Shown here: piece after piece, positions 686 to 4,605 of the stretch
Numbering within the stretch: position 1 is the first letter of the stretch
Layout: every line of letters begins with the position of its first letter
Assembly (NCBI GenBank): GCA_018385135.1
Contig: JAHAWY010000050.1
Location: 1 to 64,000 of the forward strand
DNA from: Oscillospiraceae bacterium
GTDB lineage: Bacteria; Bacillota; Clostridia; Oscillospirales; Oscillospiraceae
Length of the DNA: 64,000 nt
Direction: 5' to 3'
Position numbers and translations under genes: made by a program
Notes under the pieces: generated by a model
Seen by the model: the letters and a program-made list of their open reading frames with translations, nothing else
Told to the model about the DNA's origin: nothing
Database searches by the model: none

Positions 686-1834
686 TTGACAGGTAGTCTA
701 CAAGTAAAATCCGATACCTTTTATGCAGTCCTTAACTTCAAGGATGATAGCGGAAAGCGTAAACAAAAATGGGTTTGTCTCAATATGCCGGTAAAGAACA
801 ACAAGCGCAAGGCAGAGCAGCGTTTAGCTGAGCTGCTAGCTGAAAACGATGGTACAGCGTATATAGAGCCAACAAAGATTTTGTTTTGTGATTACGTTAA
901 GCTGTGGGTTGAAGGAGAAAGAGGCAAAGTACAAGTAACAACCTATGACAACTATGTTCATATGCTAAACCGGCACATTTATCCTTACTTTAAGAAGCTT
1001 GGTTTGCCGCTTGCCAAGGTCACACCCAGCGTTATACAGAAGTATCATGCTGATAAGCTCTCGGAGGGCTTGAGTCCGAACACGGTTATCAAGCACCACG
1101 CCATAATGAGAACGTCTTTGCAGCAGGCATACAAAGCAAAGCTTGTGAGAGAAAATGTGGCTGACCTAGTTGAAAAGCCCAAACGAGCTAAATACCATGG
1201 AAGCTTCTACAACGCTGACGAATTAAACAAGCTGCTCGCAGTGGCAAAAGGCACGACAATTGAAACGCCGGTGTTTCTAGCTGCATATTTCGGCTTGCGG
1301 CGGTCAGAAATAATCGGACTCCGTTGGGAAGCAGTTGACTTTGTAAGTAAGACGGTGACGGTAAAGCATAAGGTGGTAAGAGCCAAGCTAGACGGCAAGA
1401 TGACAATTCAAGCCACGGACGAACTTAAAACGCAGTCCAGTTACCGTGTCCTGCCGCTCAATGATACGCTTCTTGCATATCTAAAAGATGTCAAGTCAAA
1501 GCAGGAGAGAAACCGAGAGAGGAACTGCAACAGTCACAATCATGAGTATGATGATTATGTGTGAGTCAATGAAATTGGCGATTTAATAAACCCCGACTAT
1601 GTGACAAGCACTTTTGAAAAAATCATCAAGAATAACGGACTAAAGCCGATTAGGTTTCACGACCTCCGGCACTCATGCGCGTCGCTTCTTTTGGCTTTGG
1701 GCTACTCAATGAAGGATATTCAAGGTTGGCTAGGTCACAGTAATTATCAGACAACAGCAAACTTGTACAGCCACGTTGACCCGCAAAACAAGAAAAATAT
1801 GATACAAGGGCTTTCTAACACCTTGACCTTTTGA
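686..1834 (+). pseudogene. Tyrosine recombinase/integrase interrupted by an in-frame TGA at 1562-1564
   Basis: ORFs 686-1564 and 1601-1834 are in the same frame, and the bases between them read on without another stop (...HEYDDYV*VNEIGDLINPDYVTSTFEKI...). Arm, core and catalytic motifs are present (GLRRSEIIGLRW; HDLRHSCASLL; GHSNYQTTANLYSHV). Start is a TTG at 686. Confidence 0.85.
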
Positions 1835-1887
1835 ATGTTAGAAGAATGTTAGAAATGCCGCTAAGGCGCGGGGCGCTTTGAGCATGA

Positions 1888-1922
1888 AAAAGCCCTGTAA
1901 CCATTGCGATTACAGGGCTTTT
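1888..1922. terminator. Rho-independent terminator hairpin between integrase and tRNA-fMet, likely bidirectional
   Basis: Stem aaagccctgtaa / ttacagggcttt, with A/T tracts on both flanks. Confidence 0.8.
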
Positions 1923-1924
1923 GG

Positions 1925-2001
<77 letters not shown>

Positions 2002-2043
2002 ATATTGATTTTCGGAGACTGCGCTCCTTATCAAAGCTTAATT

Positions 2044-2072
2044 AGATTACCACGCATAGATGCGCTTGTCAA
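2044..2072 (-). promoter_or_regulatory. Sigma-A promoter for tRNA-fMet
   Basis: On the minus strand TTGACA (2072-2067), 17 bp spacer, TAATCT (2049-2044). Confidence 0.7.
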
Positions 2073-2266
2073 GTGTTTTGTTGGAAAGACCAAAATGTTA
2101 CAAAAAATACTAATGTGTGAAAAAGAAGATGATTGGACAAAATGTTGTGAAGCTCAAATTTGATGTTTATTAGAATAAAAACTTGTGGTAATATATGAGT
2201 ATGTTGTTAAAAAGTATCCCCGTTGCTTCTTCGCGTGAAGCGAAGATGAGATGAAAGGAAATATTG

Positions 2267-3523
2267 ATGTATATTGATTTACTGAAACTTGAGAATTTTA
2301 AGGGTATTACCAATATGGAACTGCCGTTGAACGGCAGAAGCTCCGTCTTTTTCGGCGTAAACGGAGTCGGTAAGTCTTCTATACTGCTTGCGGTTAATAT
2401 CTTGTTTTCAAATATAATAAACAAAATCGTTGCAAATAGGTTTAAGCAAGGCATTTCGATTGATTTCAACGATATTACTTTTGGAAAAACGAGAGCTAGC
2501 ATAAGCGCTGAGTTTCAGATGGAAGGATTTCCTTGTGGATACGCCAGACATATAGATAAAAATGCTAACAGAAGGACTCACAACAGAATTGAGCTGGATA
2601 ACCTCTACAATTTGTTTGAAGCTCTTTTCTTGGTCGTTCCTGAAGCGAATATGCCAATTCTTGTTAATTACGGCGTTAATAGATCTGTTGTTGACATCCC
2701 TCTCAGAATAAGGACTAAACACGAATTTGACAAACTGTCAACGTATCAGAATGCGATAGAAAGCAAGATAGATTTCCGCACCTTTTTTGAGTGGTACAGG
2801 TATCAAGAGGATTTTGAAAATCAAGTAAAAGTAAGAGAAGATCCAAATTACTCCGATGTTTCCCTGAGGGCGGCGCAGACTGCCATTACATCTTTTATGG
2901 AAGGCTTTTCAAATCTTCGCGTAGACAGAAATCCGTTGGCAATGAAGATTACGAAGCAGGGGCGTGATTTGAGGATTGAGCAGCTCTCTGACGGAGAGAA
3001 ATGTACGATAGCGCTTTTAGGCGATTTGTCCAGACGATTGGCACTTGCAAATCCTTCGTTAGATAACCCGCTTGAAGGTAAAGGAATTGTCTTGATAGAT
3101 GAGATAGAGCTGCATATGCACACCCAGTGGCAAAGGAAGATACTTCCAAAGCTAAAAGAGATCTTTCCCAATATTCAGTTTTTGATTACGACCCATTCAC
3201 CGCAGGTTCTCGGAGAAATTGACGATTCTTACAATCTGTTCTTTTTGGAACGCAGCGGTTATCTAAGCGCCTGCACCCGGATTGACTCGCTCTATGGTTG
3301 GGATTCCAATACGATATTGGAAGACAAAATGAATACTCCGAGCAGGAATAGCGATATTCAGGAAAAATCCAAGCTTATGTTTCAAATGATTTCTGAAAAA
3401 AAGTACAGAGAGGCTTCAGCATTGGCTGACGATATAGCGGTTGTTACAAACGACGCGAATGAAGATGTCACTTATGCTAGAGTGTTGATTGCAAAAGGGT
3501 TGAGAAATGAAAAGAATAGTTAA
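2267..3523 (+). CDS. ptuA: AAA family ATPase, PtuA-like (Septu-type defence ATPase)
   Basis: RecF/OLD-like ATPase: N-terminal LENFKGI...VFFGVNGVGKSSIL Walker A, LSDGEKCTIALLGDLSRRLA signature, GIVLIDEIELHMHTQWQRKILPKLKEIFPNIQFLITTHSPQVL Walker B/switch. Followed with a 17 nt overlap by an HNH gene. ATG 2267 has an AAAGGA RBS; the track uses an upstream TTG. Confidence 0.75.
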   Translation: MYIDLLKLENFKGITNMELPLNGRSSVFFGVNGVGKSSILLAVNILFSNIINKIVANRFKQGISIDFNDITFGKTRASISAEFQMEGFPCGYARHIDKNANRRTHNRIELDNLYNLFEALFLVVPEANMPILVNYGVNRSVVDIPLRIRTKHEFDKLSTYQNAIESKIDFRTFFEWYRYQEDFENQVKVREDPNYSDVSLRAAQTAITSFMEGFSNLRVDRNPLAMKITKQGRDLRIEQLSDGEKCTIALLGDLSRRLALANPSLDNPLEGKGIVLIDEIELHMHTQWQRKILPKLKEIFPNIQFLITTHSPQVLGEIDDSYNLFFLERSGYLSACTRIDSLYGWDSNTILEDKMNTPSRNSDIQEKSKLMFQMISEKKYREASALADDIAVVTNDANEDVTYARVLIAKGLRNEKNS

Positions 3524-4136
3524 GTTATCAGAGCCTCAGACCTTTTCAGCCTGGAAGACAAAATTTCAGGCTGAAAAGGGCAGGATGCCTACATATATGG
3601 ATCTGGTCGGAAAAGAAAAGCAGGATTTAAAAGAAACGCTTCTTGATGAACAGGGATATATTTGCTGTTACTGTATGAAGAGAATTGAGACGTACAATTC
3701 CCATATTGAGCATTTTCGACCTAAATCTGATCCTAAATACAGTGCTTTGGATCTCGACTACAACAATATGTTTGCGTCGTGTAACGGTGCAAAGGAAAAT
3801 GGAGAGAATTGCGGACATCGCAAGGATGCGTGGTTTGACGAGAACACCACTGTATGCCCGCTGGAGGAAGATGTTGAAGAACTCTTTACATATCTCCCGA
3901 ATGGTGAAATCATAGCGGCGAATGGCAACCCCGGAGCTGCCGAAACAATAGCCAGGTTTGGACTTGATACAAAGCTGCTGACTAATCATCGTTATGCAGC
4001 TATTCGGGCGGCGATTAATCAAGGCGCTCTGAAAGATGTTGATGATTGGCTGAGCTTCTTCGAGGAAAAGGATGCCGACGGATGCTATCAGCCTTTTTGC
4101 CAAGCTGTTGTTTGCGTTTTACGCAGTTTAGCATAA
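3507..4136 (+). CDS. ptuB: HNH endonuclease, TIGR02646/PtuB-like
   Basis: LLDEQGYICCYCMKRIETYNSHIEHFRPKSDPKYSALDLDYNNMFASCNGAKENGENCGHRKDAW matches the CxxC...HIEHFRPK...N...SC...CGxxK pattern of the retron/Septu-associated HNH family. Confidence 0.8.
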   Translation: MKRIVKLSEPQTFSAWKTKFQAEKGRMPTYMDLVGKEKQDLKETLLDEQGYICCYCMKRIETYNSHIEHFRPKSDPKYSALDLDYNNMFASCNGAKENGENCGHRKDAWFDENTTVCPLEEDVEELFTYLPNGEIIAANGNPGAAETIARFGLDTKLLTNHRYAAIRAAINQGALKDVDDWLSFFEEKDADGCYQPFCQAVVCVLRSLA

Positions 4137-4202
4137 AAAGTGTTTAAAACCTATTAAACCGGTCAAAAACAAGCATCAACAATAAGCTCCAAAAACAAAA
4201 AT

Positions 4203-4243
4203 GCAGCCCGCAAAATACTGAAATATCAGTGTTTTGCGGGCTG
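4203..4243. terminator. Long inverted repeat between the ptuAB-like genes and tRNA-Arg
   Basis: gcagcccgcaaaatactga / tcagtgttttgcgggctgc, about 19 bp stem with one wobble/mismatch. Confidence 0.75.
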
Positions 4244-4250
4244 CCTGCTT

Positions 4251-4327
4251 TGGTACGCCCTGAGGAATTCGAATCCCCGGCCTTCTGGTCCGTAGCCAGA
4301 CGCTCTATCCAGCTGAGCTAAGGGCGC
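4251..4327 (-). tRNA. tRNA-Arg (anticodon ACG), CCA encoded
   Basis: The reverse complement GCGCCCTTAGCTCAGCTGGATAGAGCGTCTGGCTACGGACCAGAAGGCCGGGGATTCGAATTCCTCAGGGCGTACCA folds as a canonical 77 nt tRNA. Confidence 0.95.
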
Positions 4328-4347
4328 ATATTTTTGAACGCTTGAGT

Positions 4348-4376
4348 ATAATAACACAGGCGTTTACAAAATGCAA
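4348..4376 (-). promoter_or_regulatory. Promoter for tRNA-Arg
   Basis: On the minus strand TTGCAT, 17 bp spacer, TATTAT. Confidence 0.6.
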
Positions 4377-4425
4377 GCCTTTTTTTGCTAAGCTGAAAAT
4401 TTTTTTGGCGACAGGGCGCAGACGC

Positions 4426-4605
4426 CTAGAAGCTCATAGAATCTCCGATGTTTTCAACAATATCGCCCATTGTTTTCAGCGCCTTGCTGATCACGTTTTT
4501 CCTCTTATGCGTTGATTTGCAGGAGGAAGACGTCGCCGCCATGCTGATCGCGGAGCCTACTACCAGTCCAAGCGCCATTCCTTTGGCAAAGTTCATACAA
4601 CCCAT
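4426..4605 (-). CDS. Small hypothetical protein (59 aa), not in the supplied ORF track
   Basis: ATG at 4605-4603 preceded by AAGGAG; translation MGCMNFAKGMALGLVVGSAISMAATSSSCKSTHKRKNVISKALKTMGDIVENIGDSMSF*. Hydrophobic N-terminal segment with a basic/amphipathic tail. Confidence 0.6.
   Translation of the reverse strand: MGCMNFAKGMALGLVVGSAISMAATSSSCKSTHKRKNVISKALKTMGDIVENIGDSMSF

Follow-up and report, generated by a model that had tools for sequence, protein, structure and literature searches.

The closest described relatives of the locus considered here are the Septu type I system of E. coli (PtuA 8ee4, PtuB 8ee7), a two-gene ptuA-ptuB operon, and the effector pairs of the type I-A retrons Ec78 and Ec83, which count as Septu type II and are defined in PADLOC by a reverse transcriptase (RT) preceding ptuAB (PMC8565338). 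In a stand-alone E. coli Septu both the Walker and the HNH residues are required and tRNA-Tyr is cleaved (PMC13096335), and a review gives the Septu PtuA-PtuB complex as 6:2 (PMC12948488). The PtuAB pair of retron-Eco7 depletes tRNA-Tyr. The 64,000-nucleotide stretch of an Oscillospiraceae genome analysed here (the window) carries near one end a ptuAB pair, very probably a stand-alone anti-phage system of Septu type I that was acquired horizontally and in which PtuA would restrain the PtuB nuclease until infection. The pair and its expression signals are as follows.

2190..2275, + strand: leader of ptuA, predicted to fold into a stable hairpin (-20.1 kcal/mol; z -3.84 against shuffles, for a region picked after inspection of the sequence)
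2254..2260, + strand: probable ribosome-binding site of ptuA, AAAGGAA (read from the sequence)
2267..3523, + strand: ptuA, Septu ATPase, 418 aa (PADLOC profile, motifs, tree)
3493..3499, + strand: probable ribosome-binding site of ptuB, AAAAGGG, within ptuA (read from the sequence)
3507..4136, + strand: ptuB, TIGR02646-type HNH nuclease, 209 aa (PADLOC PtuB1, TIGR02646, invariant Cys/His/Asn)

The ORF calls place the overlap between the two genes at exactly 17 nt, as the initial annotation had reported, and the complete set of ATPase motifs that it described can be located in PtuA as Walker A GVNGVGKS (residues 30-37), signature LSDGE (240-244) and Walker B LIDE (276-279), with THSP at 309-312. 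PtuB displays the motifs CCYC and HIEH together with N87, C92 and C102, and its residues C53, C56, H66, H69, N87, C92 and C102 are invariant across the three closest clostridial PtuBs; the Walker A, signature and Walker B motifs of PtuA and the HNH and zinc residues of PtuB are thus all intact. The spacing of AAAGGAA suits an ATG start of ptuA at 2267, with an in-frame TTG at 2264 as the alternative. The end of the span originally given for the feature (2228-4136) stands, while its start takes in about 39 nt of leader ahead of ptuA. The leader fold is centred on a CUUCGC/GCGAAG hairpin immediately 5' of the ribosome-binding site, and a 16-bp inverted repeat (94% complementary, 7-nt loop) lies at 3541-3579 in the 5' coding part of ptuB, right past the ptuA stop. 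A terminator scan gave matches at chance level only.

The family identity of both proteins is clear from curated profiles. PtuA matches the PADLOC PtuA1 profile PDLC00271 with 442.8 bits (E=4.5e-133), aligning residues 1-413 to profile positions 1-416 of 421, and PtuB matches the PtuB1 profile PDLC00346 over nearly its full length (E=1.1e-58); these E-values are so low that a chance match is excluded. PtuB also scores above the cut-off of NCBIfam TIGR02646 (92.8 against 52.15 bits). The PtuA/PtuB assignment of the initial annotation is borne out by this PADLOC comparison, which it had itself proposed. With a curated PtuA profile match, an adjoining PtuB HNH protein, intact Walker A/B and H-N-H residues and no RT preceding ptuA, the locus belongs to Septu type I, and it resembles the E. 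coli system in its two-gene, RT-less operon, its Walker and HNH motifs and a PtuA in the range of 400-475 aa that lacks an N-terminal extension. In sequence, however, the window PtuA is far from E. coli Septu: the solved structures most strongly related to the pair come from retron-Septu and Septu systems (Ec83 PtuA 9e8z, Ec78 9vh1 and E. coli PtuA 8ee4, with the matching PtuBs), and the stand-alone 8ee4 scores 102 bits against 135-189 bits for the retron PtuAs. AlphaFold models built from three-row alignments were poor, with mean pLDDT values of 42 and 48.

The surroundings of the pair comprise two tRNA genes and, to the left, the end of an integrated element.

32-400: CRESS-type Rep, C-terminal part (its L092 homologue matches Viral_Rep and RNA_helicase)
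397-585: HTH_17 excisionase-like protein (domain profile)
686-1834: tyrosine integrase (domain profile)
1925..2001, - strand: initiator tRNA-Met, left flank of the pair (ARAGORN, Rfam RF00005)
4203-4244: predicted inverted-repeat terminator beside tRNA-Arg (inverted-repeat search)
4251..4327, - strand: tRNA-Arg(ACG), right flank of the pair (ARAGORN)

Between tRNA-fMet and tRNA-Arg, ptuA and ptuB are the sole genes, as first annotated, with 265 nt separating tRNA-fMet from ptuA; the ARAGORN calls agree with this, and the initiator identity of the left tRNA can be read directly from its C1:A72 mismatch. The lower GC content ascribed to the pair is also confirmed: ptuA and ptuB have 40.2% and 43.9% GC against 53-58% in the neighbouring core genes ymdB, sbcD, sbcC and aroC, and a GC3 of 42-43% against 60-66%. 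The initial description of the locus holds on every point checked. The DNA left of tRNA-fMet is likewise low in GC and is part of the integrated element, the end of which occupies positions 1-1834 (about 1.8 kb) at the 3' side of the tRNA and had gone unmentioned in the initial annotation. Homologous Rep-Xis-Int sets are found in congeners at tRNA-Pro (L092) and tRNA-Ala (L093, L094). Contig C77, from the same genome, terminates in a 98% identical 120-bp copy of positions 1868-1987, which covers the 3' part of tRNA-fMet and its terminator and adjoins a flavodiiron/rubredoxin-like gene; this is likely to be either a distal attachment site or a second copy of the tRNA gene. The tRNA-fMet 3' end is also duplicated exactly over 45 bp in genomes G001 and G002, at distances of 17.5 kb and 5.1 kb, respectively, from the intact gene (L081:9068-9112 and L079:1-45). 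Such repeated copies are consistent with integration at the 3' end of tRNA-fMet and suggest that this site is used repeatedly. The ptuAB pair sits on the 5' side of tRNA-fMet, apparently outside the element, and a search of positions 1800-4500 found no att-like direct repeats bracketing it; a role for ptuAB as cargo of the integrase element is thus unsupported.

The order tRNA-Arg-ymdB is kept on one side in eight congeners, while gene content on the other side of tRNA-Arg is different in each of the five congeners with 2-16 kb assembled there, none of which has tRNA-fMet on that side. The idea that the interval between the two tRNAs is a conserved slot for variable defence cargo is not upheld by these flanks. 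In several congeners tRNA-fMet lies near the AsnRS and gyrase genes, and the AsnRS-gyrA region of the window genome holds no tRNA-fMet. From these differing contexts of the two tRNAs it follows that the present tRNA-fMet-ptuAB-tRNA-Arg arrangement is specific to the source lineage; the exact empty site is not reconstructable from the compared genomes. In one congener (G001) 42 bp of the tRNA-Arg 3' end occur again with 93% identity (L037:9319-9360), 6.4 kb from tRNA-Arg and with S-layer-type genes between the two.

With one genome per species in the comparison, PtuA is found in none of 11 congeners, and 400 other genomes of the family yield no close homologue, only distant matches of which the best full-length one is 27% identical; 12 of 390 other genomes of the class have a PtuA profile match at E below 1e-20. 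Together with the low GC content, this absence and rarity count in favour of a horizontally acquired defence pair. The closest PtuAs found (46-49% identical) come from a Clostridiaceae genome (L045), a Lachnospiraceae genome (L046) and MT839996, a contig from human faeces that is catalogued as phage; a scan of viral contigs gave no relative. These three and a further RT-less clostridial pair (G436) share the architecture of the window locus, but the neighbourhood is unlike in each, the MT839996 copy adjoining Gabija-like genes. Other relatives are carried on plasmids or sit inside a type I restriction operon that has a TnsD gene nearby, and such scattered occurrence is typical of defence genes. 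On a Phocaeicola plasmid the two functions are united in a single 616-aa gene (L101:4001-5851), a natural fusion of a PtuA-like ATPase part with an HNH part, which lies downstream of TIR, SIR2 and RloB-family genes.

Given the higher scores of the retron proteins, the pair might be read as the leftover effectors of a type I-A retron that has lost its RT and msr-msd RNA. PtuA and PtuB of the window are homologous to the retron effectors, including the TIGR02646 domain of PtuB; PtuA matches the PADLOC retron I-A PtuA model PDLC02913 with 310 bits, the solved structures closest to it are retron PtuAs, and the NCBIfam retron-Ec78 equivalog models for both proteins respond, though below their cut-offs (289 against 500 bits and 104 against 150 bits). 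The genome, which is 98.5% complete, nevertheless has no RVT_1/PF00078 match, a search of the 64-kb window with four retron RTs as queries found nothing, and the gene before ptuA is the tRNA-fMet gene on the opposite strand, not an RT. At gathering thresholds Rfam returned tRNAs only and no msr-msd RNA, a collection from which many retron RNAs are absent. For a wider comparison we examined 30 PtuA proteins and the genes around them. An RT lies directly upstream in five of these loci (L131, L132, L133, L137 and L138), and in all five 55-63 residues precede the position that matches residue 1 of the window PtuA, giving proteins of 541-550 aa when complete, as against 418 aa without the extension. 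The other 25 loci, the window included, have no RT in at least about 0.9 kb upstream of ptuA, and their proteins show seven or fewer extra N-terminal residues, the one exception being a distantly related protein from a C. difficile plasmid, which has 26. A long PtuA with an N-terminal extension marks all five RT-linked loci of this comparison, and since these form a single clade it represents one evolutionary event, not five. The window PtuA also has 27 residues from FFEWF to the second half of the ATPase, against 64-75 in the retron I-A PtuAs. In a tree of the 30 proteins it joins four RT-less clostridial proteins with support of 100/100, in a clade nested within a 13-row RT-less group (97/96) that adjoins the retron group (95/88), and a single change suffices to explain RT linkage. 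The topology test does not reject a tree in which the whole clostridial group joins the retrons (p 0.16), but it does reject one that puts the window PtuA alone inside the retron clade (p-AU 5e-8). The four clade mates of the window PtuA lack an RT as well. Because of the missing RT, the missing N-terminal extension and the position in an RT-less clade, the window pair is a stand-alone Septu type I system, as the initial annotation had proposed, and not a retron remnant; we reject the latter as very improbable.

On another reading, the pair once served in defence but has since decayed or fallen silent. This would fit the state of the neighbouring integrase, in which the frame of 382 codons is open save for a single in-frame TGA at codon 293 (1562-1564), while the related integrases in L092-L094 are uninterrupted; decay also occurs in the group, as seen in a Hungatella relative of PtuAB with internal deletions (L047), and a promoter scan at the ptuAB locus found nothing above chance. 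Against loss of function, neither gene is interrupted, no motif residue is missing, each gene keeps its ribosome-binding site and the 17-nt overlap is preserved, and we regard a silent pair as unlikely. The initial annotation had also named two outcomes that would tell against defence, namely placement of the ATPase in a housekeeping RecF/OLD family and invariant presence across the clade. PtuA does share the common AAA_21/AAA_15/SMC_N ATPase fold by domain profiles, as a RecF/OLD-like repair protein would, but models of the RecF/OLD type score far lower on it than PtuA models do, with 31.5 bits for RecF (cut-off 172) against up to 443 bits, the HNH partner is specific to Septu and retrons, and the pair is missing from all 11 congeners. 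These profile scores and this absence rule out a housekeeping repair pair, a reading to which we give almost no weight.

For the pair as a Septu type I system, the oligomer, trigger, target and activity can be modelled on characterised homologues. PtuA, an ABC/SMC-type ATPase, would assemble into an oligomer to which PtuB is bound and by which it is restrained before infection, acting as ATP-dependent sensor and scaffold of an abortive-infection pair in which PtuB is the nuclease. An infection signal would then free the HNH nuclease to cut an essential nucleic acid, which may be a tRNA such as tRNA-Tyr or phage DNA, and this cutting would abort the infection. With the characterised stand-alone Septu coming from E. 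coli and its 8ee4 scoring only 102 bits, this mechanism is transferred between distant homologues; the natural PtuA-PtuB fusion in a relative counts in favour of the Septu reading.

In itself the pair consists of ordinary defence genes of the already known Septu type I. It provides a clean example of a stand-alone Septu in a clostridial clade that has been thinly sampled. The nearness of the window PtuA to the retron I-A effectors, combined with its lack of both an RT and the N-terminal extension, makes it a handy comparison for finding the part of PtuA needed in control by msDNA. It is possibly close to the stock that gave rise to the retron I-A effectors. More speculatively, and we think this rather doubtful, no stand-alone PtuAB may be much closer to those effectors than the RT-less clostridial clade. 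If this is true, the clade could show how PtuAB is silenced without msDNA and which type of PtuAB gave rise to the retron effector by gain of the N-terminal extension.
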